The notes under the pieces were generated by a model. It did no database searches. It was given only the letters and a program-made list of their open reading frames with translations, and was not told the origin of the DNA. A DNA stretch of 59,993 nt from a virus. How positions within the stretch are numbered: the stretch's first letter is position 1; the number at the start of each line of letters is the position of its first letter. Positions 4,266-59,993 of the stretch are shown in pieces. The stretch lies in the IMG/VR virus record IMGVR_UViG_3300044630_000957, positions 1 to 59,993 of that record, one strand, 5' to 3'. The position numbers and the translations under genes were made by a program.

Positions 4266-4828
4266 TATAGAGCTTCCGCGTTGAGGTCTACGGTCCACGT
4301 ATCAAGCACCGTGGCAGTGCCAGTGCGGCGAACTTGGAAGGCTAGTTGGGCATACACAGAGTTTCCTGACCCAGAAATATCTACGAGCCAAGCGGGGTTA
4401 CCAGTCGTCGCTATCCAAGTGTTAACCGTGCCAGTAACCGAACCGGCTGTCACACTAGCGTAAACTTCGTAGTTTCCACCTTGGCTGGTTGGTGTGCACC
4501 ACTGTTCTACATACATATAAGAGCCGCCGTTAAGCGCCTCATATACTTGGCCTATGGCGGCACCAGCACCGAAAATTGCGTACGCTGCTTCGGAATACCC
4601 AAAACCCGCAGCGAAAACGCCGTAATCGCTGAAAGTAATAAGGACATTGCTCTTGCCGTAGAAGTTGGTCGGCATGACAATAGCGCCAGACGCAACGCCC
4701 GCCAGCGTGCGGACGTCGGTGTCGTTCAGCGAGACCGTGGCGGTAGCAGCTTTACCCAACTCAAGGTTGATAGACTGCCCCGCAGTGCTGCCACCCAAGC
4801 TGATTGGGCCTGAAGAGTTAAGCGTCAT
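4265..4828 (-). CDS. Tail-associated structural protein, 187 aa
   Basis: Begins MTLNSSGPISLGGSTAGQSI and continues with LNDTDVRTLAGVASGAIVMP and a phage-typical NFYGKS segment. This N-terminal pattern recurs in tail or collar proteins of many phages. The C-terminal half is a beta-rich domain with YMYVEQWCTP and VYAQLAFQVRRTG. The gene is coupled by TAATG junctions to the S74 fibre upstream and to the gp10-like gene downstream, which supports a tail-tip or fibre-attachment role. I do not recognise a catalytic motif. Confidence 0.65.
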   Translation of the reverse strand: MTLNSSGPISLGGSTAGQSINLELGKAATATVSLNDTDVRTLAGVASGAIVMPTNFYGKSNVLITFSDYGVFAAGFGYSEAAYAIFGAGAAIGQVYEALNGGSYMYVEQWCTPTSQGGNYEVYASVTAGSVTGTVNTWIATTGNPAWLVDISGSGNSVYAQLAFQVRRTGTATVLDTWTVDLNAEAL

Positions 4829-7800
4829 TATTTAGCTCCCCGTAGCTCGTCCAGTTCCGCCTTTAACTCTGCGATGGCAGCGAACGCCACGGCGACCAGT
4901 TTCTCGTAATCAACCGCCAGTGTGCCGTCGTCGCGGGTGCGAACGGCCAGCGGGAACATTTCCTCCACGTCCTGCGCGATGACGCCGAAGTCGTTCTTGC
5001 GGACGAAGTAGTCGTCCTCGCCGCCGTGCTCCGCGATGTAGGCGTCGGTCCAATCGAACGTCTTGCCGCCAACAGTAGTCACGATGTCGAGCGCGTTCTC
5101 AATCGGACGCACGTTCTCTTTCAGACGCGCATCGGACGAATAGAACGCCGTGACGTTGTTCGTCGCACGGATCTCACCGGCAGTGCCAGAGCCTGCCGTG
5201 CCGACGCCGAGGCTGTTAACCTGATAGTTGTTGCTTGTGTTCAGCGCGTTTGCGGTGGTCGCCGTCGTAGCGGTTGTCGCCGAGGTGGCTGTCGCCGCGT
5301 TGCCGCTGACGTTGATGGCCCAAGTGCCGCTTGCGCCCGAACCCGTGGCGGAAGGTACACCAAGCGCGGACTGCGCGGTGGCTTGCGTAGTTCCGCCTGT
5401 GCCTCCATTGGCCACAGCGAGCGTGCCGCCAAGCGTCAGCGTGCCCGACGTCGTGATCGCGCCGCCGGTCAGGGTAAGGCCCGTCGTGCCGCCTGATCCA
5501 GAGACTGAGGTGACCGTGCCTGTGTTCGACGTAAAGCCCGAAGGGTTGCTTGCGGCGTAAGCGCCAAGGTTGGTGAGCGCAGATCCAGCGGTTGTTGCGC
5601 CGGTACCGCCGTTGGCCACGGCTACGGTGCCAGTGACGTTGGCTGCCGTCCCAGTCGTGTTCTGGTTAAGCGTTGGGACGTCAGCGGCTACAATCGCACG
5701 GAACGTAGGCGTACCCGCCGTGCCGTTCGGCGCGGACAGGAACGTATTGGCGGATTGTGACGCAAAGTTGGAAGCCGTGACGGCAAGCGTGCCGCCAAGG
5801 GTGAGGGAGCCAGACGTCGTAACCGTACCGCTCAGGCTCAGTCCGCTGACCGTGCCTGTGCCGCCAACTGAGGTGACCGTGCCTGTGTTCGAGGTGAAAC
5901 CAGACGGGTTACTCGCGGGATAAGCGCCAAGGTTGGTGAGCGCAGCGCCCGCAGTCGTTGCGCCTGTACCGCCATTAAGTATGGCGACAGTGCCAGTGAC
6001 GTTCGACGCCGTCCCAGTCGTATTCTGGTTGAGGGTCGGGAATGTGCAGTTTGTCAGCGTGCCAGAGGAGGGTGTGCCAAGCGCGCCGCCCGGAGCGACG
6101 TAGTCAGTGCCTGCGGTAGCGGCAGTGAACGCCGCAGTTCCGTTGCCCTTAACGAGGCCCGTAAGAGTGGTGGTGCCTGTGCCCCCGTTGGCGACAACAA
6201 GCGTACCAGCGAGGGTAAACGTACCCGCCCCTGTGATCGGCCCACCAGCCAAAGTGAGGCCCGTAGTGCCGCCCGACGCGGCCACGGATGTGACCGTGCC
6301 ACCGCCAGCGGTAGAGGTTATGGTAACGCCGCCCGCGCTGTTCGAGATAGATATGCCCGAACCTGCGGTGAGCGTTGCAACGCTGTACCCTGTGCCGTTG
6401 CCGATCAGGAGCTGGCCGTTTGACGGGGCAGTCGCGACGCCGGTACCGCCTTGTCCCACGCTGAGTGCGGTGGTCAAGCCTGTCAGTGACGTGATGTCGG
6501 AGTTCGCGCCGGAGCCAGCCGCGCTGAGGGTAAGTCTCGCGCCGGAGGCACTGGTCGCGCCAGTGCCCCCAGACGCTATCGCGAGCGTGCCCGCGAGTGT
6601 CAGTGTGCCGGAGGTGGTGATGGGCGAACCGGTAAAAGATAGACCGGTTGTGCCGCCCGACGCGGCCACTGACGTAACTGTACCGCCGCCAGCGGTAGAC
6701 GTGATGGTGATACCACCGGCACTGTTTGTGATGCTGATGCCCGACCCAGCCGTCAGGGTCGCCTTCGTGAGCGTGTTGCCTGTGCTGTTACCGATCAGGA
6801 GCTGCCCGTCGGTGTACGTGGTCTGGCCTGTGCCGCCGTTGGCGACAGGGAGCGCAGTGCCCGACAGCGAGATTGCCAGCGTGCCCGATGTCGTGATCGG
6901 CGAGCCGGTTACGGACAGGAACGACGGCACCGTTGCCGCGACGCTGGTCACCGAGCCTGAACCCGTGCCGACGCCCACGCCGTTGATGAAGAGGCCCGTG
7001 GCGTTAATCGTGCCCGCACCCTGCGCTCCGGCAGTAGGCGCGCCGATCTGGATACCTGCCGCGTTGGTCAGCGCAGTGATGTCCGCGTTGCTGCCTGATG
7101 CGGCTGCGCCAAGGCTCGTGCGCGCCGCGCCAGCCGTTGTGGCGTTTGTGCCGCCCTGCGCGACGCTCAGGGGCGTCGTGAGGCCAGACAACGATGTGAT
7201 GTCAGAGTTAGCGCCAGAGGCCGCCGCCGCGATGGCGGAGCGCGCCGCCGCCGTTGTGGTAGCCGTAAAGACCGCCGTGCCGATGCCTGTGCCGCCGAGG
7301 TTGGTCAGGGCCGACGGTGCGTTGGTCGCTCCGGTGCCGCCTTGGACAACAGGAACAATACCCGCAAAGGCTGCTGACGTGGTGGCCGAGATGATGTCCG
7401 TGCCGTCGCAGTACAGGATACCTGTCGCGCCCTGAGTGACCAAAGTGGCCGCGCCGCTGGCCGTCTTGATGCCTAGCGTAAATGCACCAGTCGTGGCGTT
7501 GTTGACCCAGTATTGCTGCACCGTCGCGGGCACAACGATGTTGACGTTGGAAGTCAGCGTGCCTGTGAACTTATACGCGATACGGTTAAGCTCAGAGCCA
7601 GCAAGCGTGTACGTGCCGCCAGTGACGGCGATGGTCGTGTAGTCGAAGGCGAAGACCGCCTGCTGGCCGAGGCCGATGGTGTACCACTGGATGCCGTCGC
7701 TTACGACCACGGCGCTGTCGCCCGGCTGCAAGCGCAGTGTGGCTGCCGCGTTGATAAGCTCAGAGCCAGACGGGTCGATAGTCAAGTCGCCCTGCCCGCC

Positions 7801-8391
7801 GTTGCGGACCTGCACAAACCAGCCGTCGCCAGCCGCCACGGCAGTCGGCAAGTTGAGCGTGCCGAGGCCGCCAGTCCAGACAAAAATCTTGGCGCGATCA
7901 GGGGCCGTGAGAGTGTACGGCGTAATGGAGAAGTCAACGACTTCGTAATTCTGCGCGAGGGTCGACCCAGTCGCGATCAGACCAGCGCCAGCCAGCGCTG
8001 CGGCTTGGGCCTGCGCCACGGCAGCGCCGTAGCGGAACGTGCGCCAGACACCGCCTACGGTGGTGTTGCTGATGAGGTAGCACTGCCACTGCTCACCTGC
8101 GCCGATGCTCAGGATTGCGTTGCCTGCGGCGTTGTCGACGGTGATGGTGTCTGGGCCGAGGTTGTTGAACAGGATTGTCTGGCCGACGCCGACTGACATC
8201 GCGTCAGGCAAAGTTATCGTGTAGGGGCCGGTTGGCGTGACGTCGATGATGCGCGCGACGACGTTGTTGCCGGTGGTGGCCTCAAGCGGCCACTCAAGGA
8301 CGATGTCGCTGGTCAGCGCAAGCGGGAGGTACGATACGTCTGAGGGGTAGATCGTCGTACCGCCGAAGACTTGAGTGAATGACGTGGACAT
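4828..8391 (-). CDS. Tail fibre/spike with NGGTGAT repeats and C-terminal S74 chaperone
   Basis: 1187 aa. The start MSTSFTQVFGGTTIY is chosen because AAGGAGG lies 7 bases upstream. The N-terminus (to about 300) is a structural domain with fold-like repeats. The middle is built from repeats of the VANGGTGATT / LTNLGAYPASNPSGF / TVTSVGGTGTVSGL type common in trimeric phage fibres. The last 102 residues start SDARLKENV, the Ser-Lys pair of the peptidase S74 intramolecular chaperone family, which trimerises the fibre and then cleaves itself off; a coiled coil (FAAIAELKAELDELRG) ends it. A long middle module is shared with the 2319-aa fibre gene. Likely a receptor-binding structure. Confidence 0.85.
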   Translation of the reverse strand: MSTSFTQVFGGTTIYPSDVSYLPLALTSDIVLEWPLEATTGNNVVARIIDVTPTGPYTITLPDAMSVGVGQTILFNNLGPDTITVDNAAGNAILSIGAGEQWQCYLISNTTVGGVWRTFRYGAAVAQAQAAALAGAGLIATGSTLAQNYEVVDFSITPYTLTAPDRAKIFVWTGGLGTLNLPTAVAAGDGWFVQVRNGGQGDLTIDPSGSELINAAATLRLQPGDSAVVVSDGIQWYTIGLGQQAVFAFDYTTIAVTGGTYTLAGSELNRIAYKFTGTLTSNVNIVVPATVQQYWVNNATTGAFTLGIKTASGAATLVTQGATGILYCDGTDIISATTSAAFAGIVPVVQGGTGATNAPSALTNLGGTGIGTAVFTATTTAAARSAIAAAASGANSDITSLSGLTTPLSVAQGGTNATTAGAARTSLGAAASGSNADITALTNAAGIQIGAPTAGAQGAGTINATGLFINGVGVGTGSGSVTSVAATVPSFLSVTGSPITTSGTLAISLSGTALPVANGGTGQTTYTDGQLLIGNSTGNTLTKATLTAGSGISITNSAGGITITSTAGGGTVTSVAASGGTTGLSFTGSPITTSGTLTLAGTLAIASGGTGATSASGARLTLSAAGSGANSDITSLTGLTTALSVGQGGTGVATAPSNGQLLIGNGTGYSVATLTAGSGISISNSAGGVTITSTAGGGTVTSVAASGGTTGLTLAGGPITGAGTFTLAGTLVVANGGTGTTTLTGLVKGNGTAAFTAATAGTDYVAPGGALGTPSSGTLTNCTFPTLNQNTTGTASNVTGTVAILNGGTGATTAGAALTNLGAYPASNPSGFTSNTGTVTSVGGTGTVSGLSLSGTVTTSGSLTLGGTLAVTASNFASQSANTFLSAPNGTAGTPTFRAIVAADVPTLNQNTTGTAANVTGTVAVANGGTGATTAGSALTNLGAYAASNPSGFTSNTGTVTSVSGSGGTTGLTLTGGAITTSGTLTLGGTLAVANGGTGGTTQATAQSALGVPSATGSGASGTWAINVSGNAATATSATTATTATTANALNTSNNYQVNSLGVGTAGSGTAGEIRATNNVTAFYSSDARLKENVRPIENALDIVTTVGGKTFDWTDAYIAEHGGEDDYFVRKNDFGVIAQDVEEMFPLAVRTRDDGTLAVDYEKLVAVAFAAIAELKAELDELRGAK

Positions 8392-8393
8392 TA

Positions 8394-9047
8394 TTACGCC
8401 TCCTTGCGCACGGCGGATCGGTCTAGGATTTTGGCGAGGTCTTCGCCGTTCAACATTGCCGCCGCGCGATCGTACATGCTCTGCCAAACTGGGATGCGTT
8501 CGTCGTTCTTGAGGAACGGCGTCGCTTCAACCAGCGTGCCGTAGAGCAAGAGCTGCGGGGCGTATTCGGTGATCCAGTTCGTCTGCACGCTCTCGTCGAG
8601 CAATGGCGGCAGCTCATAGTACAGGATCTCAAAGGGGTATTCTGCGTCGGGTGTCGGCGCAAGCAGCCAGTGGCTGTAGTCATAGTCGCTGTAGAAGATG
8701 GGCGTGTCCGTCTCCAACGCGTTCGGCCAATAGGACCGCAGATATTCATAGACGCGGGAGAACAGGATTTTGCGGTCGTTTCCTGTTGTGCCAGTGCCGA
8801 TGTTAATCGACACCGTGTCGCGCCAGCGATCAGGCTTGGGGTAGACAGACTGACCCGCAGAGAGCGTGCCAGTCACGACGTTGATGAAGCCCTCGACCTT
8901 CAGCTCGCGGGCGATGCGGCGCTCGGCGAGGTTGATTAAACGTGGGATTTGCTCAAAGACAATCGGGTCGGACGCAAGCGTATTGCCGCGCTCAAGGTAG
9001 CGCTGCACGTCTTGTTTCAACGTCGTGAATGTCATCGCAGTGGCCAT
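8394..9047 (-). CDS. Head-tail adaptor-like protein
   Basis: 217 aa, starting MATAMTFTTLKQDVQRYLERG. The order of elements (N-terminal helix, IPRLINLAERRIARELKVEG, then FEILYYELPPLLDE and a C-terminal LLLYGTLVEATPFL helix) resembles the adaptor family that sits under the portal in podoviruses such as SU10. It is the first gene after a sigma70-like promoter (9075-9103) and precedes the fibre gene. A second adaptor-like gene lies at 22250-23236, so the phage may use two adaptor rings, or this one may act as a tail accessory factor. Confidence 0.6.
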   Translation of the reverse strand: MATAMTFTTLKQDVQRYLERGNTLASDPIVFEQIPRLINLAERRIARELKVEGFINVVTGTLSAGQSVYPKPDRWRDTVSINIGTGTTGNDRKILFSRVYEYLRSYWPNALETDTPIFYSDYDYSHWLLAPTPDAEYPFEILYYELPPLLDESVQTNWITEYAPQLLLYGTLVEATPFLKNDERIPVWQSMYDRAAAMLNGEDLAKILDRSAVRKEA

Positions 9048-14735: not shown

Positions 14736-17700
14736 TTACTGTTCCTTTGCTTCTAGGGCTTTTACCTTATTTGTGAGTTCTTTTACAGCCTCAATCAGCA
14801 GGCCGATAGTGGCGTTGTAATCCACTGCCTTGATGTCGCCGTGATCGCGCACAGCTTCCGGCAGAACCGTTTCGATTTCCTGCGCGATGACGCCAGCGTA
14901 CCGCTGCTCTTTATCATCAAGGTCTGTGCGGGTGTATGTAACGCCCCGTATCTGGTCTAGCTTGTCCAGTGCGTTTGGAATTGTCTCGACGTTGGCTTTG
15001 ATGCGTATGTCTGAGAACGCAGTGACGTTGCCGGTGGCTGTTATAGCGCCGTATACATAAAGACCACGCGACCCAGCCTGACCGATTTCGACGTTTGTCC
15101 CTGCCGTGGCTTTAATCATCGGCGCACCGACTGTAAGGTCCCAAACCTGCCAAACACCCGCACTGGCAACATCAAAGGAACATTCGGCACTGGCGGCAAC
15201 GAGGATGTTAACTCCAGTGTTCCACGTTATGTCACCACGCCAAGTCTGAACGCCCAAGCTAACGGTTTGAAGGACCGAAGTGCCATTTGGGTCTACATAG
15301 AAGCCGCTATCATTGTTGTCGTACATGATTGGCGCGTAGAAATTGACATTCGACCGAGTAAAAGCACTTCCGTTCCCGATATCAAACAGAACCGCACTGT
15401 TTTCGATGTTAATGAACTGGAAACCGCCATAGGCAGGACTTGCCCGGAAACGCTGTCCTGTATAGAAACGGATTTCTAGCGGCTGCGTCCACGCCCCAGC
15501 GGGCTTGCCTATACGGTAATTAGTGTCGCCGTCAGAGTGGAAGTTGATCCATAACGAGCCACTTGTGGTGACGTTTTGACCCCCAAGGTAAATGGACGAT
15601 GCTGATGTATCGGTAGATTGTGCAATAAAGTTAGCACGGTTAAGGTTGCTGAAACCGTTAGGGTCAAGGTAATAGCCAGTGTCGTTGCTGTCGTAGAAGA
15701 TTGGTGCACGGACGTCAGCAGTGACAGAAAGAGTGCCGCCCATCGACATTGTCATACCGATTGCCGACGCTACGCCAGCATAACCGGGTGTAGCCGATCC
15801 CCACCAAAAACGATTGGAGGTATCAATACCGAAGCCCGCGCCAAGTTGACCGGCGCGGGTTAGGCCGTAGTAGGAATAGTTGTTACCATCAGTTGCGCGT
15901 GTAACCGCTATCTTACCGTAAGGATCATTTGTTTGCCCACTATCGTAAACGCCAAGATTTTGGGCAAGAAGTGTAATTAAACTCGACGTGCTGGCCGCGT
16001 CGATGAAAAATCCGGTGTTGTTGCTATCGTAGAAGATAGGTGCGCGCATAGAAACGTCGCTCTGAGTAAACCCTGCGGACCCGAAAAAGTAAGCACCGCC
16101 GTCCCAGAATAGGTACTTAGAACCTCCATCGGCAAAGTAGTAGACGCCTGTAGTTCCACTACTACGGCGTGAATAAACATCGCCGTTACCTTGAATTACG
16201 GTGCCACCATCAAACAGTACCTGACCGCCCAACCGCGAGCCAGCGGCGGGATCGAGATAATACGCAGTGTTGTTGCTGTCGTAAAAGATCGGTGCGCGGA
16301 AGTCACCACTGGCAGCGAACGTAGCGCCGCTTGGGGCGTCGGCCCAACCAGCGTAAATCTTCGACCATGCGCTCCAAGCACCGGCTTCACGGAAACGAAC
16401 AGATGGATACGGAAGTCCGCCTACTGCGGTACGAGGCCAATAAAACTGACTGGCGTAGTCAGAATAGGGGTAGTTTGACCCCAGACCAAGGCTAAACCCG
16501 TAATACTGGGTAGCACCAGAAATGCCGGGGCCATTCGTGTTACCTTGTACATACCTTACGCCGAAATTGGTAATTGCATTGAAATCAGTTTGCTGACCAT
16601 GCACTTGGTTCATGTTATTGAACGTGGCGATTGCGCCAAGGACGTTTCCACTTGCCACATTTAGGTCATTAAGGACCGATGTGCTGGCCGCGTCGATGTA
16701 GTACGCGGTGTTATTGCTGTCGTAGAAGATCGGAGCGCGGGAGGAGCCAAAAGCAGTGACGAAGTTACCCGTGTTGATGCCGAGAGCAATAGTCCCAGTG
16801 CCGGTTACGTCTGACGAAGACCCGTTAACCCAGAAGTACATACCAGCATCGGCGGAAGTGTAATCAACGCCGATACCTGAATATTTAGCGTTTGCGGAGT
16901 TGAACACCAGTACGGGGAAAGTGGCCGCGAGCATCATGTTGCGGTTCCAGCCAGCCGTCATGGCTGTGCCGCCACTATTTACCAGTGTGCCGTTGAGGTT
17001 GGAGCCAGATGCGGGGTCGAGGTAATAACCCGTGTTGTCGCTGTCGTAGTATATCGGGGCGCGCATGTCCCCGTTATTGATTTGGAGGCCGGTGCTGTTC
17101 CACGAGGCGACAGTAGTCCGAAGAGCGGGGTTGATGGTGTCAGACGTTCCGTATTGCAGAATGCCACCGTTGTAACCTGCAATGGCAAGTTGGTCGCTGG
17201 GGTTTGCACCATAATTACCAAATACGACGTAACCGCCCATGTTGTTATCTTGGAAAGCGATACCGGAATAAGTGGCATTATCCGCTGAATGACGGAACAG
17301 AAGGTAGTTGTTGCCGGAGCTATCAAGAATGCCAGTTACACCGGAAGGGAGCGCGCCGATCCCTGTCGGCGTTGACGCAACTACATGTGACTTTGCCAGT
17401 GGTGTAACCGTGCCGATACCGACATTTCCGCTGGGGTATTTGATGGTCAGGCGCGGCGTTGTTCCTGCCTCGATAATTTGGAAATCATCGCCAGTTGTCT
17501 GCAAGTCGTATGAATAGTTAGTCGCAGAGCCGATACGCACATAGCGGTTCGCTCCGTTGTTCAGTGTTAGATTGCCTGACGTGATAAGATTGCCAGCGGT
17601 GTTTAATGAGGTCGAACCAGTAGGATCAAGATAATAGCTCGTGTTCGCACTGTCATAGAAGATTGGCGCACGGACATCGCCATTCGCAGTGAACGAACCA

Positions 17701-20700
17701 GAGCTATTTAACGTAGCTTTTGTCATCATCGTATTGTCGGAGCCGTTTTCGGTTCCGAAATACATTATGTTTGAGCCGTATACGATTGCGCCATGCTGAC
17801 CCGCAGAGGCACCAAATGCAATACCATAAGCGGCAAAGGCTGTTGCAGGTTCATATATGTTACCGATGCCGACACCCGCACCGATATTTGACGGATCAAC
17901 ATCTCCGCCGGTTACGTAAACAGCATTTAATCTCGAACCGCCAGCCGGATCGAGGTAGTAGCTCGTGTTCGCGCTGTCGTAGTATATCGGGGCACGCATA
18001 TCGACGTTGGCCGTGACGTTACCGCTGCTGTTGATCGAAAGGCGTTGCGTGTTGCTTGTGAGGAAATTTAAGGGTATCGCGCCGGGTGTTACTATTTCGG
18101 CTGCGGATGAGTTGACCCCAAAATAAGCGATTGCGGTTCCGCCTACCTTTAACGCGTTGATTGCTGATGTAGCGCCGTTGGTTTCGATTAACCCGCGACC
18201 ACTTGTGCCGTAAACACTGGTGGCTCCGCCAACTATCACGTTACCGCCGTCACCCTGCAAACACAGATTTGTAGGTACGCTACCAGCGTATGCCTGTAAC
18301 GAACCTACATACCCCTGCACAGGGTCGTTGATATACCCCATCTGCAAACGGTAAGCGGTGTTGTTTGTGGCCTCGCCAATCTGGAGTTGGTTCCCACCAG
18401 CAAAGGTTGTTGGTGTTGTTGCGGGGATAAGCGTTAGACGCCCGCCGAAGTCCGTGGTAGTCCCCACCAGCAAGTTGCCGCTGGCGTTGATGCGCATACG
18501 TTCAGTGAAAGCCCCCGCCGCGCGCTGTCCAAAACGCATAACATCTGCTGTGTTGGTAAAAATCTGCAAGCCGTTACTGTCGGGCGTGCCGATGCCATAG
18601 TCAGCGGTGTAGCTGTAAAAAGACTTACTGATAGGTACAATTATGTTACCTTCAACACGCAGCCTCTCCACTGGTAAAGTGGTGCCAATACCGACATTCG
18701 TGCCGTCGTCGTATATAACCGACGCGCTGACAGCCGACGTGCCGTTACCCTTGAGAACGTAGCCCGATGACAGGGTCGTTGCGCCTGTGCCGCCATTGGC
18801 GACGTTCAGCGTGCCTGCAAGAGTGATCGTCCCGCTGGTGGTGACTGGGCCGCCAGACGTCGTCAGGCCGGTGGTGCCGCCGCTGACGTCGATACTCGTA
18901 ACGGTGCCCGCGCCACTCGCGGGCGAGGAGATAGTGAAGTTCGGGTACGTGCCGGTCACGGTCGTAGCGCCAGATCCTGTCAGCGACACAACCTGATCTG
19001 GGGCCGTGTTGGTGACGGTGATAGAGCCAGAGGACGTGATAGGGCCGCCAGAGACGCTGACGCCAGTTCCCGCAGTCAGGTTGACGCTGGTGACGGTGCC
19101 GGTGTTTGACGTAAAGCCAGACGGATTGCTCGCGGGGTACGCTCCGAGGTTCGTCAGCGCAGTTGCCGCGCTCGTCGCGCCAGTACCGCCATTAGCGATG
19201 GCAAGTGCGCCAGACGTGATCTGCGACGCAGCGATAGCGATTGCAGACGACGACGCAGACGTAATCTGACCCTGCGCGTTGACCGCGATGACAGGGACGG
19301 AGGACGCGCTGCCATAGGTCGATGCGCTTACGCCTGTGTTCGTGATGCTGAAGACCGTACCGGTCAGCGTCAGGCCAGTGCCCGCCGAGTACAGGACTGG
19401 CGCGGCGAACTGCGTGAACGTAATCGGCGTTGTGCCGACCGTAATCGGCAGTGGCGTCTGCTGCACCCACGACGTGTTGGACAGCGTCGATCCCGCCGTG
19501 ACAAGGAAGAAGTCGCCCGCGTCGATCTGGTCAACGCCAGTGCCTGCGCTGTCGAAGTCTGTTGCGCGTGTCAGGATGTACGGCGTCGAGCCGTTGCCGA
19601 CCTGCGTGACGGTGTAGACGCCGTTATTGGCCCCCGCCGCCTCGTCCTTGACCAAGATGCGGTTGCCCGCAACCACGGCCACGCCGTCGACCGAGAGTGC
19701 GCCGTTGGCATTGGCCGTGAGCGTCGCGCCGACGCCAGAAGTGCCGTTGTTGTACGTGTTGGCAGGCAGAGCCGCAGCCGTTGCCAAGCGCACGGACTGA
19801 TGGAAGTTGATGCCTGACGCGATGCTGTCGGCATACGCCTTGTTGACGATGTCGGTGCCGTTGACTGGCGACGTGCTGATTGTGCCTGTGGTGAGCGCAA
19901 TCGACGTGATGTCGGTGTTGGCACCAGAGGCCGCCGCGCTGAGGTTCGTGCGCGCCGTGGCGGCCACGCTCGCGCCTGTGCCGCCATTGGCGATGGCAAC
20001 GATGCCCGTTACGTTTGAGGCCGTGCCGGTCGTGTTCTGGTTGAGCGTTGGGATGTCCGCCGCAACGATAGCGCGGAACGTCGGCGTGCCTGCCGAGCCG
20101 TTCGGTGCCGCAAGGACCGTGTTGGCCGTCTGCGACGCGAAGTTGGACGGCAGGACGGCAAGCGTCCCACCAAGTGTCAGCGAACCTGCGGACGTCACTG
20201 TGCCGCTCAGGCTCAGGCCGCTGACGGTGCCGGTGCCTGAGACTGACGTCACCGTACCTACGTTAGATGTGAAGCCCGAAGGGTTGCTTGCGGGGTACGC
20301 ACCTAAGTTCGTTAGAGCAGCGACTGCGTCCGTTGCGCCAGTACCGCCATTGACGATGGCAAGCGTGCCGTTGAGGGTCAGTGTGCCCGCCGACGTAATT
20401 GGGCCGCCGGTAAACGACATGCCCGTTGTGCCGCCGCTGGCATTGACGCTGGTCACGGTGCCTGCGGTGCTGTCGTTCGATGTGATTGTGAAGCTAGGGT
20501 ACGTGCCAGTGACGGTCGTCGTGCCTGCGCCTGTTAGGGATACGACCTGATCTGGCGCGGTGTTGGTGACTGTGAACGACGGGTAGCTGCCGGTGACTGA
20601 GATTGCGGTGCCGCCTGTCAGCGCCACGACCTGATCGGGCGCAGCGTTGACCAGAGAGCCGCTGGCGAGCGTCAGACCATTGCCGACGGAGATTTCCTCC

Positions 20701-21695
20701 GCAGCGCCGACTGATGCCGTAGTGCGGCCTAGAAGCCGCGCAGAGGCCAATGTCAGGCCGCTGGCGGTGTATGCGCCCGGCGCGACGTAATCAATGCCTG
20801 CGGTGGCCGCAGACAGCTCTGTGCCGTTGCCTTTAAGCAAGCCGCTCACGGTCGTCGAAAGCGTGATAATCGGTGACAGGGTCGGGCTGGCAACGGTGCC
20901 CGCAAAACCGTTGGCGGTCGCGACGGCAACGCTGATTACGGTGCCCGCGCCTACCTCAGTCCAGAAGGGCACGCCGCCGGGGCCGCCAGAGCGCAGAACC
21001 TGCCCAATGCTTCCGGCGGTGGTCAGATACAGCTTGTCGTTGCTAGAATAGACGATGGCACCGGCAACAGGAGACAGACTGTTGCCAGTGCCGCCACGGG
21101 ACAAGGGGAGCACGCCTTGCGTTTCCGTGGTGTCGCTCAAGTCCACCGCAGGGTGGACGTGATCTCCACGCGCGGCAACAGTCGAGACACCGGAGGAACC
21201 GGGACCGAGAGGCTCAGGCGTTGTAGATGAAAAGATTACAGCGAAAGAACGGTTGGCGGAAAGATCTCCGCCGCCGGTCAGACCCGCGCCAGCCGTGATT
21301 GTGCGGCTGGTGGGGACGTAATTTGCGAGTACGATAGGTGCCGAGGTCGCACCCGTGACGCGGCCCTGCGCGTTGACCGTGAGGACTGGCACGCTGTCGG
21401 CGGCACCGTAAGTGCCAGCCGTGACGCCTGTGGTGGTCAGGCGGCTGTCATCGACACCGCCCGGCAAGATGAAGAGCGTGCGGTTGGTCGACAGATCTCC
21501 GCCGCCACCCAGACCGCTGCCTGTGTTGATTTCACGCGAGGACGGCACCGCGCCGACGGCAGCGATGTTGGCGAACTGGACCTTGAAGGTGCGTCCGTCG
21601 ATGATGTACGGCATGTAGCCGAGTGTGCTCGTTCCCTGATATTCAGGGAGGCCGGTGATGCGGGTAGGGATGAGATTTGTAGGGACGTTGCTCAA
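14736..21695 (-). CDS. Giant tail fibre (2319 aa) with YDSNNTxYYLDP repeats and S74 chaperone
   Basis: The largest gene. The N-terminus (MSNVPTNLIPTRITGLPEYQ) is likely the virion anchor. Residues about 50-1050 carry GAGLTGGGDLSANRS and NGGTGAT-type fibre repeats, including a long block nearly the same as in the smaller fibre (LTNLGAYPASNPSGFTSN onward). From about 1200 to 2200 there are eight spaced copies of APIFYDSNNTxYYLDPxxxS, a repeat known from long fibres of marine phages. The last 92 residues begin SDIRIKANVETI, the Ser-Lys motif of the S74 self-cleaving chaperone, ending with a coiled coil. Probably the main host-recognition fibre. Confidence 0.88.
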   Translation of the reverse strand: MSNVPTNLIPTRITGLPEYQGTSTLGYMPYIIDGRTFKVQFANIAAVGAVPSSREINTGSGLGGGGDLSTNRTLFILPGGVDDSRLTTTGVTAGTYGAADSVPVLTVNAQGRVTGATSAPIVLANYVPTSRTITAGAGLTGGGDLSANRSFAVIFSSTTPEPLGPGSSGVSTVAARGDHVHPAVDLSDTTETQGVLPLSRGGTGNSLSPVAGAIVYSSNDKLYLTTAGSIGQVLRSGGPGGVPFWTEVGAGTVISVAVATANGFAGTVASPTLSPIITLSTTVSGLLKGNGTELSAATAGIDYVAPGAYTASGLTLASARLLGRTTASVGAAEEISVGNGLTLASGSLVNAAPDQVVALTGGTAISVTGSYPSFTVTNTAPDQVVSLTGAGTTTVTGTYPSFTITSNDSTAGTVTSVNASGGTTGMSFTGGPITSAGTLTLNGTLAIVNGGTGATDAVAALTNLGAYPASNPSGFTSNVGTVTSVSGTGTVSGLSLSGTVTSAGSLTLGGTLAVLPSNFASQTANTVLAAPNGSAGTPTFRAIVAADIPTLNQNTTGTASNVTGIVAIANGGTGASVAATARTNLSAAASGANTDITSIALTTGTISTSPVNGTDIVNKAYADSIASGINFHQSVRLATAAALPANTYNNGTSGVGATLTANANGALSVDGVAVVAGNRILVKDEAAGANNGVYTVTQVGNGSTPYILTRATDFDSAGTGVDQIDAGDFFLVTAGSTLSNTSWVQQTPLPITVGTTPITFTQFAAPVLYSAGTGLTLTGTVFSITNTGVSASTYGSASSVPVIAVNAQGQITSASSSAIAIAASQITSGALAIANGGTGATSAATALTNLGAYPASNPSGFTSNTGTVTSVNLTAGTGVSVSGGPITSSGSITVTNTAPDQVVSLTGSGATTVTGTYPNFTISSPASGAGTVTSIDVSGGTTGLTTSGGPVTTSGTITLAGTLNVANGGTGATTLSSGYVLKGNGTSAVSASVIYDDGTNVGIGTTLPVERLRVEGNIIVPISKSFYSYTADYGIGTPDSNGLQIFTNTADVMRFGQRAAGAFTERMRINASGNLLVGTTTDFGGRLTLIPATTPTTFAGGNQLQIGEATNNTAYRLQMGYINDPVQGYVGSLQAYAGSVPTNLCLQGDGGNVIVGGATSVYGTSGRGLIETNGATSAINALKVGGTAIAYFGVNSSAAEIVTPGAIPLNFLTSNTQRLSINSSGNVTANVDMRAPIYYDSANTSYYLDPAGGSRLNAVYVTGGDVDPSNIGAGVGIGNIYEPATAFAAYGIAFGASAGQHGAIVYGSNIMYFGTENGSDNTMMTKATLNSSGSFTANGDVRAPIFYDSANTSYYLDPTGSTSLNTAGNLITSGNLTLNNGANRYVRIGSATNYSYDLQTTGDDFQIIEAGTTPRLTIKYPSGNVGIGTVTPLAKSHVVASTPTGIGALPSGVTGILDSSGNNYLLFRHSADNATYSGIAFQDNNMGGYVVFGNYGANPSDQLAIAGYNGGILQYGTSDTINPALRTTVASWNSTGLQINNGDMRAPIYYDSDNTGYYLDPASGSNLNGTLVNSGGTAMTAGWNRNMMLAATFPVLVFNSANAKYSGIGVDYTSADAGMYFWVNGSSSDVTGTGTIALGINTGNFVTAFGSSRAPIFYDSNNTAYYIDAASTSVLNDLNVASGNVLGAIATFNNMNQVHGQQTDFNAITNFGVRYVQGNTNGPGISGATQYYGFSLGLGSNYPYSDYASQFYWPRTAVGGLPYPSVRFREAGAWSAWSKIYAGWADAPSGATFAASGDFRAPIFYDSNNTAYYLDPAAGSRLGGQVLFDGGTVIQGNGDVYSRRSSGTTGVYYFADGGSKYLFWDGGAYFFGSAGFTQSDVSMRAPIFYDSNNTGFFIDAASTSSLITLLAQNLGVYDSGQTNDPYGKIAVTRATDGNNYSYYGLTRAGQLGAGFGIDTSNRFWWGSATPGYAGVASAIGMTMSMGGTLSVTADVRAPIFYDSNDTGYYLDPNGFSNLNRANFIAQSTDTSASSIYLGGQNVTTSGSLWINFHSDGDTNYRIGKPAGAWTQPLEIRFYTGQRFRASPAYGGFQFINIENSAVLFDIGNGSAFTRSNVNFYAPIMYDNNDSGFYVDPNGTSVLQTVSLGVQTWRGDITWNTGVNILVAASAECSFDVASAGVWQVWDLTVGAPMIKATAGTNVEIGQAGSRGLYVYGAITATGNVTAFSDIRIKANVETIPNALDKLDQIRGVTYTRTDLDDKEQRYAGVIAQEIETVLPEAVRDHGDIKAVDYNATIGLLIEAVKELTNKVKALEAKEQ

Positions 21696-52648: not shown

Positions 52649-55039
52649 TTAGCGGCGCATGCCGTAGTGTCGTGCCAGATCGGCGATGGATGCCATGCCG
52701 CCGTTGCGGAACGCCTGCACCGTGCCGCCACGGTACATGTTCCGCATGGGTGCCGCTGTTGCGTCGTCAACGACCACATATTCGCCCAACTCAGGATCGA
52801 AGGACGCGATCTCCACGTCCGCTTCGTAGTCGCCGCCGGGCATCGTAGATAGGCCGCTGAGGTCTTCTTCGGTGAGCGACGGGACAACCACTTCGAAGTC
52901 ATCTGAAAGCTGGCCGCGAGTGTCTTCAGGCGGCGGGGCAATCGTCGATGCGGCGGCAACGCCACCCTTCGTGACGCGGCGCTCAAGCGCCCGATCAGCC
53001 GCTTGCTGAACCGGAGCAGCCGCCTCAAGACGTGTCAACACCTCTTCAAGTTCTTCGGGGCTGCTGGCTTTAAGCATGCGCGCCAACTGTGTGTACGTCG
53101 CCCGCGACACGTTAGCGTTCCGCATGTTAGACAGCAAACGTGCAGTTCTGTTGATGATGTTGCCCGGCGTGGGGTTGACAAAGAGGTCAACAGCGTTTTC
53201 GATGTTGCCGCCCGCAATCTGGTTTTGGATGTCTTCACGTTCAGCAAGTCGGCGGAATGACGCGCTGTTGCCGGTGGCTTGACCGATGTCGTTAAACAAC
53301 TGTTCTTCGCGCCGTAAAGCCGCTTCGAACACTTGAAACTCGCCGGGGTCCATGACCGCTTCAAACTTTTTCAAGGAGTTTTCCTTGAGGAGAGTGTTGG
53401 CGAAGTTTTGACGCCTACCTGTATCCTCAAAACCCTTCAGAACTTGCTGCATAAAGCCAGTCTTGAAGGCCTGCTGTTCGCCCGGAGAGTAATCCTTCAT
53501 AAACTTGCCAAACTGCTGCCAGCGCAAGCCACCAGAGTTTTTGCCCTGTTCGAGGGCTTCCTTAATTTCGATGTCGCCCTTGTATTGCTGACGCGCGGCC
53601 TTGAACTCCTTCGGGCCGATGGCATCAAGCCGCTCTACAAAGGCGTCGCGCAAACCGCGCAGGGACGTAGCTTGGCCGCCCTGACCGCTGGCGTAGAGCG
53701 AGTTAATTTTGCGGTCGAGCGCAATCTTAACCTGATTAAGGGTGCCCATGTCTGGTGCCATTTTGCCGGTAGGCGAGAGACCAATAACCGAGCCTTCCGC
53801 GTCCATGATTGGGTCGAAGACTTCACGCAGTTTGAACTGCGACGGGTCTTGCCCTTTAAGAAGTGCTTCTTGTTGCTGCAAGCGCGAGTTTTGAAGCGCG
53901 TCTATGTACGCCGAGCGGATTGCAGGATCGTCCAGAACCTGCATGATACGCGGATCGCGGACCTCCACGTTCTGCCAGCCTGAGCCATAATTCCTCTCGG
54001 CGTTGTCGCGCAGCGTTTTGAGGACGCTCTCCTCCGACGCAAAATAATCTGGCGTCGGCACCGCCTCTTTCGCAAGGGCTTTGACGCGCTGCGGGGCACC
54101 GGACTGCACGTTGAACAGTCGGCGGACGAGATCGGCTTGTTCGCCGCTTGGTGTATTAACCACGTTTTCAGTAAGACGGCTAAGTTCTGGCGATAGCCCG
54201 CCAAGGGGCAAGTTGTCTATGCCATACGTCTTTGCCAGTTCGGCCAATTCGGCAATTTTTGCGTTGTCCAAACCGCCTTCGGCGATGCGGCGGCTGATGA
54301 TGCCCGCTGCGCGGCGGGCTGCCTCTTCGTCGCCCATCTCCGTGCCACGCGCAGATAATACGCCGCGACCAAACTTGACCGCCTCGCCAACGCCGTACCC
54401 CGCAGCACCCAATGGAACGCCGAGGGCACCACCGATAACAGCTTTGCCCGCGCTGTCCACAAACCCTTCGCCCGAACCGAAACCCGCAGTGCCGCCAGCA
54501 ACTGCGCCCGTAGCGGCAGCTCTGGCGAGAGGTGATGATAATTTGCTAATCCCTGTACCGGCTTGGATTGCCCGTCCGGCGACGTTAACACCGGGGACGA
54601 ACATGGTTCCGATGCCACCTGTGATATTCAGAGCGGGGCCAAGGACGGGATACGCCTCGTTGAACTTGGCGCGCTCAAGCCGGATTTCGTTGACCAGCTC
54701 ATCGTAACTCTTGTCTGAGAACGCGGCGCGAGCAGCCGCCTCAGCTTCGTCGCTGAACTCAAACGCCGCGCCGCCCGCCAATTCGCGGAGGCCGCCAGCG
54801 ACCGTCTCACCCGCCGTAAGTTCGGGAGGCTCAATCTCAATCTGAGGCGCAACATCGGCAGTACCGCCGCCCGGTGCCTCATATACCCGAACCAACTGCT
54901 CCAACTCTTCGTCATTAAGCGTGTCAAGCTGCGCGGCAGTGTTTTCGTGCTGCTGGATGAGGTAGGCAAGCTCCTCGTCCGACATCCGGTCGATGGAGGA
55001 GTATCTGTTGGGCGTAGCATTTTGGCCGGTGTTTATCAC
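52649..55039 (-). CDS. Internal virion / ejection protein, 796 aa
   Basis: An N-terminal helix pair (MSDEELAYLIQQHENTAAQL, LNDEELEQLVRVYEA), then a hydrophobic Gly/Ala stretch at about 125-210 (NITGGIGTMFVPGVNVAGRA; VIGGALGVPLGAAGYGVGEA) suited to crossing a membrane, and a long helical body (LQNSRLQQQEALLKGQDPSQ; FVERLDAIGPKEFKAARQQY). The C-terminus has FDPELGEYVVVDDATAAPMR and a GGTVQAFRNGGMASIADLAR tail. Size, composition and place match proteins ejected into the host to build a trans-envelope channel. ATGA overlap upstream. Confidence 0.7.
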   Translation of the reverse strand: MINTGQNATPNRYSSIDRMSDEELAYLIQQHENTAAQLDTLNDEELEQLVRVYEAPGGGTADVAPQIEIEPPELTAGETVAGGLRELAGGAAFEFSDEAEAAARAAFSDKSYDELVNEIRLERAKFNEAYPVLGPALNITGGIGTMFVPGVNVAGRAIQAGTGISKLSSPLARAAATGAVAGGTAGFGSGEGFVDSAGKAVIGGALGVPLGAAGYGVGEAVKFGRGVLSARGTEMGDEEAARRAAGIISRRIAEGGLDNAKIAELAELAKTYGIDNLPLGGLSPELSRLTENVVNTPSGEQADLVRRLFNVQSGAPQRVKALAKEAVPTPDYFASEESVLKTLRDNAERNYGSGWQNVEVRDPRIMQVLDDPAIRSAYIDALQNSRLQQQEALLKGQDPSQFKLREVFDPIMDAEGSVIGLSPTGKMAPDMGTLNQVKIALDRKINSLYASGQGGQATSLRGLRDAFVERLDAIGPKEFKAARQQYKGDIEIKEALEQGKNSGGLRWQQFGKFMKDYSPGEQQAFKTGFMQQVLKGFEDTGRRQNFANTLLKENSLKKFEAVMDPGEFQVFEAALRREEQLFNDIGQATGNSASFRRLAEREDIQNQIAGGNIENAVDLFVNPTPGNIINRTARLLSNMRNANVSRATYTQLARMLKASSPEELEEVLTRLEAAAPVQQAADRALERRVTKGGVAAASTIAPPPEDTRGQLSDDFEVVVPSLTEEDLSGLSTMPGGDYEADVEIASFDPELGEYVVVDDATAAPMRNMYRGGTVQAFRNGGMASIADLARHYGMRR

Positions 55040-55740: not shown

Positions 55741-56534
55741 CACCGGCCTCCTCTAGCATAATTAACAATCCGCATTGCTTTTTCAGCAAAGCGCGGCCCA
55801 AATTCCTGAATGAAGTCATCGAGATTAGCTTGTGACGGATCGGAAAGCAAATCAGCCCATGCGACGTCATTGGGTTGGACGATGCTTTCCCCAGAAATTG
55901 GATCGTAGGCTTTACTGTTTTCAATGATGACCGATTTCATCGTTGGTGTCTTATTCGCCATCGCCTCCAACTTCGCCATAGCAAGCGCCGTCGTCACGTC
56001 CTGCTTGGCGAGGCCCAGCCGCTGGGCGAAGCGATCTTTATCCAGTTGCTCAAGCGCCTCGCGACGGCTGATCTCGCCCTCGCGCTGGGCCTTCTGCTGC
56101 GCCGCCAAGACGGGTGAGATATTCTCCAAGATGCCGCCAAAGCCACGACGTGTCGTCGGTGCGGCTAACGCTGCCGACAACTGGAACATACGCTCGCTGA
56201 ACGACGGGGCGTACCGTTTCTCCGCCAAGGCCTTAGCCTGAGCGTCGTAACGAGCCTGCTGCTCCGCCGCGAGCTTGTTGAAGGCCGTCATGGACGTCTG
56301 GACATTGGGGTTGTTGTACACTGCCAGACCGCCAGCCTCCGCGTCAGAAGCGGCAGCAGCGTCTGCATCAGCGGCAGCAGCGTCTGCGGCAGCAATGGTG
56401 TTAAGGCCACCCAAATCTTCGTTCATCGTCTCTTCCTCTGCGTCGGTTGCCGCTGGCAGCATGCCTAAGCCTTGCTTCATTTTACGAATGTGTTCTATCT
56501 GCCACGGGGCAAGGGGCGGGTTTTGCACGATCAT
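55740..56534 (-). CDS. Internal virion protein with Ala/Asp tract, 264 aa
   Basis: MIVQNPPLAPWQIEHIRKMK, an Ala/Asp-rich tract (AADAAAADADAAAASDAEAG), then helical NKLAAEQQARYDAQAKALAE, FSERMFQLSAALAAPTTRRG and GEISRREALEQLDKDRFAQR. The APSFSERMFQLSAALAAPT segment is a phrase I associate with virion proteins of this group. Overlaps the upstream stop (ATGA). Confidence 0.65.
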   Translation of the reverse strand: MIVQNPPLAPWQIEHIRKMKQGLGMLPAATDAEEETMNEDLGGLNTIAAADAAAADADAAAASDAEAGGLAVYNNPNVQTSMTAFNKLAAEQQARYDAQAKALAEKRYAPSFSERMFQLSAALAAPTTRRGFGGILENISPVLAAQQKAQREGEISRREALEQLDKDRFAQRLGLAKQDVTTALAMAKLEAMANKTPTMKSVIIENSKAYDPISGESIVQPNDVAWADLLSDPSQANLDDFIQEFGPRFAEKAMRIVNYARGGR

Positions 56535-57577
56535 TTACCTTTCAGCGAACCGACGATGCCCGCCGCAGCGGTTAGCGCGCTGGCAATATCTTTCCCAGTC
56601 GATGAGTACTCCTGTTTGACGCCTGACGGCGAGATACCGTATTCTTGCGTCGCGCTTGGGACGCCGGAGGCAACACCTTGGAACGTCTTCATCATGTTGT
56701 TGATCTGCTCTTGCGGATAGCCCTGCTGACGCAGGAAGTCCTGATACGCCACGTCGAGGTTCTTCTGACCCTGCTGCTGCTCCAGTGCGCCGACGCCGCC
56801 CAGCGCGCCTGCGCCAGTGAGGCCGAGGCTCTGCGCCTGCTCGCCGAGTGTCGACAGAGCGCCAGAGGCGGCGAGCTGCTGTTGCTGCTGCGCCCGCGCC
56901 AGATCGCCAGCCGTGCTTGCGAGAGTGCCGAAGCGCGACAGGTCAGTGCCTGCGAGCCCAGCGGCCTGCGTGTAACCGGATTGGAGCGCCTCAGTCTGCT
57001 TACCGAGGATGTCGGCACTGGTGTCGCGAAGGGCGCGCGCCGTGTCGGTCATCATGCCCGACGGCGTGCCGCCTAAGCCACCACGCCCGCCGAAGCCGAG
57101 CTGACCGGCTTGGATGTAGCGGCCTTCGATTGCAGGCATAAGGTTTTCTGTGAGGTTGCGCGTGCCCAGCTCGCCGATGCGGTTGACAACGGCGTCGGTA
57201 TACGGGTTCATGTACTGGCCGATGTTCGACACGGATGTCTGACCGGCCTGCGTCAAGAACGGCTGTGCGGTGTTTAACGCGCCCGGCGCATTCGCGGCGC
57301 TCTGCGCAACGCCTGTGGCTTGATTGAATAGTGGCTGGTACGCCGTGGCGGCGTTGCCGGTCATGCCGAAGGCTTGCTGCTGCGTCGGCGTGAAGCCCGC
57401 AACGCGCGGCATCGGCGCTGTCTCGTATGGGCGATTGGCTATAGCCTGCTGCCCCGACAGGATGTCCATCGCGTAGTTGGTGTACCACTCAGGCAGCACC
57501 TGCTGCTTGGTCATGTCCGTGAGGGCGGAGCCTTGCGGGATTGCGGCCCCCTCGGCTAGGAATGAACTGATAGCCAT
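56531..57577 (-). CDS. Internal virion protein, 348 aa, Gln/Ala/Gly-rich
   Basis: MAISSFLAEGAAIPQGSALT, then PRVAGFTPTQQQAFGMTGNA and YMNPYTDAVVNRIGELGTRN, AGQLGFGGRGGLGGTPSGMM, a Gln-rich helix (LARAQQQQQLAASGALSTLG) and FLRQQGYPQEQINNMMKTFQ. The pattern P-x-F-T-P-x-Q-x-x-A and YMNPYxxxV is a hallmark of a widespread podophage virion protein family next to the portal-proximal ejection genes. TAATG junction with the allele B gene. Confidence 0.72.
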   Translation of the reverse strand: MAISSFLAEGAAIPQGSALTDMTKQQVLPEWYTNYAMDILSGQQAIANRPYETAPMPRVAGFTPTQQQAFGMTGNAATAYQPLFNQATGVAQSAANAPGALNTAQPFLTQAGQTSVSNIGQYMNPYTDAVVNRIGELGTRNLTENLMPAIEGRYIQAGQLGFGGRGGLGGTPSGMMTDTARALRDTSADILGKQTEALQSGYTQAAGLAGTDLSRFGTLASTAGDLARAQQQQQLAASGALSTLGEQAQSLGLTGAGALGGVGALEQQQGQKNLDVAYQDFLRQQGYPQEQINNMMKTFQGVASGVPSATQEYGISPSGVKQEYSSTGKDIASALTAAAGIVGSLKGK

Positions 57578-59993
57578 TAAATGCGTCCTCCAGACAGATA
57601 TGCTTCGGCCTTCTTGGCGTTAGCACTAAAACGGCCCTTTGCCAACTTCTGACCCTTGTGTTTACGAACTTTAACTCGAAGCTCGTCCAGCTTCTTTGCG
57701 CCAGCCTTATTCGACCCGTCACCCAGCAGGGCGACAGTCTCGGCATCGATCACATATTCGCCGTCGGACAGCACCGCAGGGATGTCGTCGCTGCGGCCAG
57801 TGCCGGGGCCGTTGACTGCAAATTCGCTGCGCTTGGACGAGCCGCCCTTTGCGAAACGCATGTTGTCAACGTCAGGGGCGTACATCGACGGCCCCCTCGG
57901 CTCGTTTGGAATAGGTGTGGTGATAGGCGCAGGGTTGGCTTGCGATGCGTAGTCGAAGAAGTTAAGCTCAGGCCGTGTGCCATAAGTCAACCAGTCTACG
58001 TCGCCCATCGGACGCGCTGTGCGGTTCCCGCCGATAACACCGAGGCCGCCTGCGGATGGCAGCTTGGCCGAGAAGATCGGGTTCAACCGGCCTGTGCCGC
58101 CGCCACCGTATGTGCCAGTTTGGCCTGAGCCACCGCCACCACCGCCGACTAAGCCGGAAATGAGGCTCGCGATGCGCAGGTACTCTTCGAGGCCGAGCTT
58201 CTTCTCGTCTGTCAGCGCGGGGTCGGGCTTTAAGTCCAAAGGACGGAGAGGTTCTAAGGGGGGCATCACCGAAACCGATGTGGGTTCGGGCCGCTCAATC
58301 TTAGAACCTTCTACAACGATTGGCTCCTTGTAGTTTTCCATACCGGAAACCCTGTCGATTACGCCGAGATCGGTTGGCATAAAGGTGCCGCTTGCGGGCT
58401 GCTCAATCCTCTTAGTAGCGTCTACAACAATGTCATTTGGTAAAACCGCTGGAGCTGTAGTCGTAAGCGCACCTAAGTCTATGCCGCTAGTAACCGCGCC
58501 GGGGCGCTGACCTGTTACCTTGATGATGTCTTCTTCGGCGATCTGGTCGGCTCCAGTAGGAAAGTTCTCCAGTCCGTCAATCGCGGGGATTACTTCAGGA
58601 GACAAACTGCCCAAGTCTAGTCCGCCAGTAACCGCGCCGGAGCGGGTTCCTGAAACGACAATCTCGTCGGTGTTGTTTACCACGGGGTCTGCTGTCAGAC
58701 CGGCTAAGTTTAACCCGCCAGTAACCGCACCGGGAACAGAGCCAGTGACGTTAATAATATCGCCATCGTATCCGCTGGTGTAATCCGCATTCGTTAAGGA
58801 GTTGGGTACCTTGGTGTTGGCGGCGTCATCCAAATACTTTTGCTCAGGCGTTTTATACCCACCAAGATTTATATTTGGCGTCGAAATGCTGGGCGTAGCA
58901 TTGACTATGATTTCCGCATTTGGGCCGCCGTAGACGGCACTACTATCAACGCCACCGCCAGTGCTGGTACTTGTGGCGGGCGCTTGATTTATGCCAAGAC
59001 CTTTAACTATGTCGGGCGTGACGTAACTAAGCGCGCCAGAAGCGACACCACCGAGGAGGGAACTCTTTAGGTCTTGTCCGGTAGCCAATCCGCCTGCGGT
59101 GGCACCGAGGCCCGTACCAATCGCGGTGCCCGCTCTAAGACCAATGTCCCCAACCTTACCTAAAGGGGCACCAAGAAGGGAGCCACCAGCGGCGGAGAGG
59201 CCGCCCATCGCCGCGCCCTTGAGAATGTTGTCACCCTTTAGGCCCGCGCCTGCGGCACCGAGGGCAGTCCCAAGACCAATTTTACCCGCAGTACTTGCAA
59301 GAAGCGAGCCTGCCGACGCGCCCGCAGTCAGCGGGATCATCGCCAGCGGCAGCAAGGTGCCTGCCACGTTGGCAATCGTACCCAGCGTGCTCTTGTTCTT
59401 CTTCTCATACGCGACGGTCGAATAGTTACCAGTCGGGTCTGCGGTTTGGATGCTGTAGTTCGCCTTGCGACCAAACTGGTTCGTCAGGCCCTGACCTAAT
59501 TCGGTTGCCTTGCGCGCGGCGTCAAAGCCTGTACCCTCGAACACGATCTGGTTGGTGCGGTGGTCAACGAGGCGTACAGGCTGGTCGGCCCGCACCGCGA
59601 AGGTGTTGCCACCCGTCTGCGACGTGGCGTTGCCTTTGTTAGATAAAGGCGCGCTGATGTACTGCAAATTAGGATCGGCTTGGTATATGCCGCCCATCGG
59701 GCCGCCACCGAAGTTCGAACCGAAATTCATCCCGTACAGGTTGTTTAGGCCGCTCAGGTCAAGTTTGCTAAAGTCAAACGTGTTAGGGTCGAACGGCACT
59801 TCGGCAGGCACAGCCTCTGTCGTCATCGGCTCGACTGCCGCTTGCTGGTACGGCTGCTCAACAGGCGCGGGCAGCATGCCGCCACCGCCGTATGGCAGCT
59901 CGTTATAGCCGCCCATGTCGTATCCGCCGTACATCATAGGCTGCTCGACAGGCATATACTGCTCGACGGGTGGGGTGTACTGGTACGGCTCGC
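57577..59993 (-). CDS. Large virion (ejection-type) protein, allele B, 5' end cut by window edge
   Basis: 792 aa from the first in-window Met; about 58 N-terminal residues lie past the edge and are seen in allele A (2260-2087). Conserved domain RADQPVRLVDHRTNQ at about 122-136, Gly/Ala hydrophobic stretch about 195-310, then six repeat motifs: AEIIVNATPS, DIINVTGSVPG, DEIVVSGTRSG, EDIIKVTGQRPG, NDIVVDATKRIEQ, EPIVVEGSKIERP (about 347-556). The C-terminus NGPGTGRSDDIPAVLSDGEY, VALLGDGSNKAGAKKLDELR is the phage internal-virion signature. The repeats resemble the N-terminal TonB-box/plug start of TonB-dependent receptors. That likeness is observed; a function is inference. Confidence 0.75.
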   Translation of the reverse strand, partial: EPYQYTPPVEQYMPVEQPMMYGGYDMGGYNELPYGGGGMLPAPVEQPYQQAAVEPMTTEAVPAEVPFDPNTFDFSKLDLSGLNNLYGMNFGSNFGGGPMGGIYQADPNLQYISAPLSNKGNATSQTGGNTFAVRADQPVRLVDHRTNQIVFEGTGFDAARKATELGQGLTNQFGRKANYSIQTADPTGNYSTVAYEKKNKSTLGTIANVAGTLLPLAMIPLTAGASAGSLLASTAGKIGLGTALGAAGAGLKGDNILKGAAMGGLSAAGGSLLGAPLGKVGDIGLRAGTAIGTGLGATAGGLATGQDLKSSLLGGVASGALSYVTPDIVKGLGINQAPATSTSTGGGVDSSAVYGGPNAEIIVNATPSISTPNINLGGYKTPEQKYLDDAANTKVPNSLTNADYTSGYDGDIINVTGSVPGAVTGGLNLAGLTADPVVNNTDEIVVSGTRSGAVTGGLDLGSLSPEVIPAIDGLENFPTGADQIAEEDIIKVTGQRPGAVTSGIDLGALTTTAPAVLPNDIVVDATKRIEQPASGTFMPTDLGVIDRVSGMENYKEPIVVEGSKIERPEPTSVSVMPPLEPLRPLDLKPDPALTDEKKLGLEEYLRIASLISGLVGGGGGGSGQTGTYGGGGTGRLNPIFSAKLPSAGGLGVIGGNRTARPMGDVDWLTYGTRPELNFFDYASQANPAPITTPIPNEPRGPSMYAPDVDNMRFAKGGSSKRSEFAVNGPGTGRSDDIPAVLSDGEYVIDAETVALLGDGSNKAGAKKLDELRVKVRKHKGQKLAKGRFSANAKKAEAYLSGGRI
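57810..59993. repeat. Terminal redundancy, copy B (partner 1-2124)
   Basis: Near-identical to the left end at both flanks (57810-58366 and about 59380-59993). The core (about 58370-58990) does not align with the left copy except for shared short motifs, and the stretch beyond it is intermediate. Sixty bases longer than copy A, which keeps frame. Confidence 0.85.

Follow-up and report, generated by a model that had tools for sequence, protein, structure and literature searches.

A predicted ejection-module protein of a freshwater phage carries a linker of TonB-box-like motifs

A freshwater virus of bacteria, represented by a single virus record in IMG/VR (59,993 bases, analysed in full and referred to below as the window), encodes a protein in which six motifs resembling the TonB box of TonB-dependent receptors (TBDTs) lie along one acidic linker. 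The reading that we prefer, and to which we give an even chance, is that this gene, designated gene B, encodes an internal ejection-module protein of a podovirus, with an unstructured linker of TonB-box mimics that engage host TonB for entry. Relatives of the protein keep these handles while the rest of the linker changes, suggesting that the virus may hook the host motor during entry.

Gene B occupies positions 57577-59991 of the minus strand as an 804-residue frame that is open at the contig end, an assignment drawn from the ORF list and from 40 IMG/VR relatives. Its AlphaFold2 (AF2) model, built on a 24-sequence alignment, is of low confidence overall and includes a confidently predicted small alpha/beta domain at residues 107-200 (59392-59673, minus strand, as for all features of this gene; pLDDT 85-95). 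This domain is followed by a Gly/Ala-rich segment at residues 201-335 (58987-59391; 49% G+A+S) with low-confidence helices at residues 228-331 and a hydrophobic stretch at residues 203-221; judging from its sequence, the segment is possibly membrane-active. The acidic linker (residues 336-590; 58222-58986), delimited by composition and a pLDDT of ~30, has a net charge of -19 and 9% proline and contains all six motifs, which fall in a part of the model (residues 340-600; pLDDT ~30) that is nearly structureless. Because AF2 assigns the linker no structure, the boxes appear to be short linear motifs and not buried strands, and the linker is, according to this low-confidence model from a 24-row alignment, the flexible, accessible segment expected of a TonB box. 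Finally, the conserved C-terminal domain (57580-57891) resembles the ends of tape-measure proteins (phrog_6090, 8.8e-7; phrog_25241, 9.6e-6), a likeness that resides in the final 100 residues. PHROG and Pfam searches with gene B gave no function beyond these tape-measure-like C-terminal matches, Pfam returning no family; a PDB fold search gave no significant match, and a viral fold search gave uncharacterised relatives only.

The likeness to TonB boxes was assessed with a profile trained on bacterial TBDT N-termini alone, in order to avoid circularity. The training set comprised 123 N-terminal segments, each preceding a PF07715 plug domain, from alpha- and gammaproteobacterial genomes, and the profile, learned by expectation-maximisation, converged on [ED][ET][IV][VI]V[TS][AG]x[RK]. 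At a threshold of at least 2 bits, it found exactly the six motifs, and nothing else, in the 804 residues of gene B, so that the sites singled out in the earlier note are also the ones ranked top by an independently learned, TBDT-only profile; the resemblance to the TonB-box/plug-start region of TBDTs is thus real. Five sites in gene B reached at least 6 bits, as against 0.05 in shuffled copies, and the best site scored 21.3 bits, where the median best score of real TBDTs is 17.1.

Each of the six motifs is in frame in this single minus-strand ORF, in the place where they had been described. Proceeding from the N-terminal side, they are AEIIVNATPS (58888-58917; 6.1 bits), GDIINVTGSVPGAVTGGLNLAGL (58696-58764; 2.4 bits), DEIVVSGTRSGAVTGGLDLGSL (58603-58668; 21.3 bits, with the core DEIVVSGTR), EDIIKVTGQRPGAVTSGIDLGAL (58465-58533; 7.8 bits), NDIVVDATKRIEQ (58399-58437; 12.0 bits), and EPIVVEGSKIERP (58288-58326; 13.0 bits). 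The third is the sole full-strength box, and the sixth is common to allele A, described below. Four of the six lack the canonical T of the V-T-A/G core, with D, E or N frequently in its place. The repeated tail GAVTGGLDLGSL, which was said often to trail the motifs, follows three of the six. Spacing is irregular, codons and flanks differ around each core, and a tandem-repeat finder detected no array, so the motif copies are diverged.

A second version of the gene, gene A, lies at the opposite end of the window (2-2266, minus strand), where its C-terminus is cut; it is 72% identical to gene B and carries five weaker motifs. The contig ends (1-2266 and 57577-59993) overlap, with 562 bp at 96% and ~980 bp at 84% identity, and the two genes are therefore two strain versions of one gene, which bears out the earlier description of gene B as an allele. 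Probably, the genome is circularly permuted and the assembler placed one version at each end; given this strain-mixed terminal overlap, the record probably represents a complete permuted genome whose end is mixed. Allele A also contains a recent 88-bp repeat (584-671 and 695-782; 97.7% identity) bearing two copies of NPIISEGSKIEQ, and boxes seem to multiply through module duplication. Elsewhere in the window, two large tail-fibre genes (4828-8487 and 14736-21695) have repeated modules in common, at ~77% identity over 398 bp.

The motifs recur across the protein family. A protein search recovered 40 relatives from IMG/VR, and an alignment search gave 80 from viral contigs, most of the 40 among them, together with 23 loci in genome contigs. 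Among 65 non-redundant relatives, 44 carried a total of 87 boxes of at least 10 bits, against 1.1 expected by shuffling (maximum 3), an enrichment of ~80-fold; the other 21 had no match at that threshold. These boxes are concentrated at relative positions 0.3-0.7, nearly all in the same linker, with a spacing of mostly 30-60 residues. Many are indistinguishable from the boxes of TBDTs, including the near-perfect EEIIVTGNR (L089), DELVVTGNR (L114), DKIVVTGSR (L118) and EEIIVTGSK (L044), as well as GDIVVSGSR. An unbiased scan of the DNA of 2.9 million viral contigs for two adjacent boxes added L251, a member of the family by its C-terminus, in which three EIVVTADRP boxes stand in a row. As a control, neighbouring genes yielded 13 matches in 159,218 residues, several of which lie in the gp16-like neighbour or in family members that are truncated. 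Proteins from Gram-positive genomes, which have the C-terminus alone in common and are not true orthologues, contained zero boxes by the TBDT profile.

Several relatives also differ in their architecture or apparent source. An extra insert of ~130 residues (SYEELSPEEKNFVDYHRRS...) precedes the C-terminal domain, in the C-terminal third, of L007 and L023. The gene of L040 (2483-4588) is a mosaic, its first half unlike the gene B protein and its C-terminal third near-identical to that of L034, and boxes are present in both versions. Phage contigs L044, L046 and L050 occur in MAGs labelled Bacteroidia, Acidobacteriaceae and Armatimonadetes, labels that are doubtful.

Conservation of the boxes is a matter of class. 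Within three clusters of close relatives, motif columns showed no excess of identity over linker columns (0.56 vs 0.52, 0.66 vs 0.68 and 0.42 vs 0.40). When relatives sharing 30-80% identity in the linker were compared in pairs, the aligned 9-mers were still box-like in 53% of cases, as against 12% in a simulation that scattered an equal number of linker-type changes at random, though nearly all of these 9-mers differ, the aligner favours similar strings, and the pairs are non-independent. This supports, without proving, the view that a box-like core is kept as a class and not as exact residues; retention of the core among relatives is accordingly suggested for its general character and not for its individual positions, which are no better kept than the linker. 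A 2024 review concluded that local secondary structure matters more to TonB-box activity than individual side chains (PMC11658791), and the loose residue conservation seen here fits such a dependence.

The surroundings of gene B would suit a virion gene. It lies within a structural module, upstream of a gene of the DNA ejection protein family (56531-57577, minus strand; phrog_4287, 3.6e-7) whose product shares 54.5% identity with gp065 of Caulobacter phage RW, and is thus encoded beside ejection proteins. A gp16-like internal virion protein, this copy being without a box, is encoded at 52649-55039 (minus strand; phrog_5880, 1.7e-40). Judging from gene order and C-terminal similarity, the name of virion protein given to the product in the earlier note is likely to be apt, and the protein is probably carried inside the virion. 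RW itself has been grouped among podoviruses distantly related to BPP-1 (PMC11053796), and its gp063 has a transglycosylase domain like that of T7 internal virion proteins. RW gp066, copies of which occur in GB2A, RLK and KcrB, has the same layout as gene B, with an N-terminal domain, a Gly/Ala segment, a proline-rich linker, and the same C-terminus, although clear BLAST similarity is confined to the C-terminal 157 residues. Its linker is shorter than that of gene B and rich in proline, and its four box-like motifs, DEIVVTPSQ (the best), DPVVVNPP, SPVTVSPP and DELVIKPP, are weaker; a single one matches the TBDT profile, with P replacing A/G.

Boxes also occur in other proteins. The gp16-like neighbours in relatives L114 (6868-8274) and L118 (8988-10358) have a single strong box, PEIVVTAPRI, near the N-terminus, and the downstream neighbour in L122 (8397-9446) has a single strong box, PEIVITAPKK, in a similar location. 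DNA scans further revealed EEIVVTAQR and EEIVVTASR, ~18 residues apart, in an unrelated, genuine tape-measure protein of L259 and L260 (in L259 at 5727-8354, plus strand; phrog_991), and no box was found in the tape measure of Marinobacter phage PS3, the best cultured relative of L259. The remaining candidates from the double-box scans (L252-L258 and L261-L269) were rejected as false positives, being either Ig-like strand repeats or short repeats in frames that are not coding; the Ig-like repeat proteins of L268 and L269 illustrate that the same string can appear as a buried strand. T1 and phi80 are the classic phages that need TonB. Their tail proteins, tape-measure proteins included, were scanned and had no box; the idea of phage-borne boxes therefore leaves the classic TonB-dependent phages unexplained, and the use of TonB by the present virus would differ from theirs.

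How podoviruses bring their DNA and proteins through the envelope, and what supplies the energy, is a long-standing question. To our knowledge, a role for TonB in phage infection, recognized since T1, has been through the receptor only. In the mechanism that we propose, the gene B protein would exit the virion together with the DNA, and its Gly/Ala helices would aid in crossing or lining the outer membrane, leaving the linker exposed in the periplasm. Successive boxes could then each add a beta strand to the C-terminal domain of the host's TonB, whereupon TonB-ExbBD, powered by the proton-motive force, might pull, anchor or orient the entry complex; group B colicins and pyocin S2 are precedents for such an action. 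The suggestion that the protein hooks the host's energy-transducing machinery is partly supported, by the likeness of the motifs and their spread through the family, and the Gly/Ala segment that it invokes is present (201-335); the colicin box is single and near the N-terminus, where those here are several and mid-chain. It is also conceivable, although we regard this more general proposal as rather doubtful, that phages of Gram-negatives have more than once come to bear TonB-box arrays on ejected proteins, which TonB-ExbBD would grip and pull from the inner side. Entry by such arrays would be colicin-like, multivalent and energy-coupled, and the genome would perhaps be pulled too.

Among other explanations, it is unlikely, although worth weighing, that the motifs serve in beta-augmentation with some other partner, for instance a portal or tail protein of the phage or another host protein in the periplasm; the resemblance to TonB boxes would then arise because each is a short hydrophobic strand with an acid and a base at its flanks. 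Such a role would sit well with the variation in exact residues, the T of the core often being D, E or N in gene B, and with the occurrence of similar strings as ordinary strands in some viral proteins; it has more difficulty with a likeness that extends over nine positions, the R/K that follows A/G among them, with the many relatives that match as well as real TBDTs, and with the recurrence of boxes in other ejection-type proteins. A shade less likely still is that the boxes do bind TonB, in order to occupy or block it and not to power entry, for example in superinfection exclusion, in protection from TonB-dependent phages or bacteriocins, or in receptor release. A chain with several boxes would be well suited to competing for TonB, and phages are known to interfere with TBDTs, as when Llp of T5 jams FhuA (PMC9586334). 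However, gene B has a tape-measure-like C-terminus and is found in the late structural/ejection module and not among early or lysogenic genes, and an ejected protein would provide few copies per infection.

Two further readings are less likely again. The first, in which the linker serves as a spacer free of constraint and prone to rapid recombination, and short modules have been duplicated and spread through it by chance, might be read from the repeated module tails (GAVTGGLDLGSL), the 88-bp repeat of allele A, and the lack of excess identity in the motif columns of close relatives, but it is disfavoured by the family-wide enrichment over shuffles, by codons and flanks that differ for each core, and by the class-level conservation, and we consider it improbable. 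More improbable yet is that the motifs belong, as buried strands, to an ordinary beta-repeat domain: I-V-V-x-G/A is strand-like, and L268 and L269 are such cases, but AF2 predicts almost no strands over residues 336-590, where the spacing of the motifs is irregular and the linker is acidic and contains proline. The motifs are, in short, not predicted as the buried beta strands that the earlier note had allowed for.

If the preferred reading of an ejected protein engaging TonB is true, the entry of phages and the import of bacteriocins would share one mechanism, the virion protein bringing TonB boxes of its own. RW is in culture and Caulobacter is a model host, which makes the idea testable, and the motif would serve as a simple sequence marker for other phages that exploit the host's energy machinery. 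Searches of the open-access literature turned up no previous description of a phage virion protein bearing a TonB box.

Comparison with known systems places the gene B protein between several of them. With ejection proteins of the T7 gp14-gp15-gp16 type and with tape-measure proteins, it shares the phrog_4287 neighbour, a gene neighbourhood that in RW includes the internal protein with a transglycosylase domain, and the C-terminal tape-measure likeness, and no TonB motif has been described for such proteins in the open-access literature searched. With the TBDTs (BtuB, FepA, FhuA and those of alphaproteobacteria), it shares a box on a flexible segment and the consensus [ED]x[IV][VI]V[TS][AG]x[RK], which its motifs match better than chance, one of the six at full strength. 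TBDTs differ in that the boxes of gene B are several per chain, mid-chain and in a phage protein, and the plug domain and 22-strand barrel were sought in gene B with Pfam, PF07715 and AF2 and found to be absent. Finally, the group B colicins and TonB-dependent pyocins (colicins B, M and Ia, pyocin S2 and klebicin C) resemble it as foreign proteins with a TonB box on a disordered segment and further domains for crossing the envelope. These bacteriocins have a single TonB box near the N-terminus, and a pyocin is pulled by TonB through its own box (PMC12927319). The receptor-binding and toxin domains of group B colicins have no counterpart among Pfam families in gene B; where these bacteriocins carry a single N-terminal box, the phage protein is encoded in an ejection module and carries up to six, all mid-chain.
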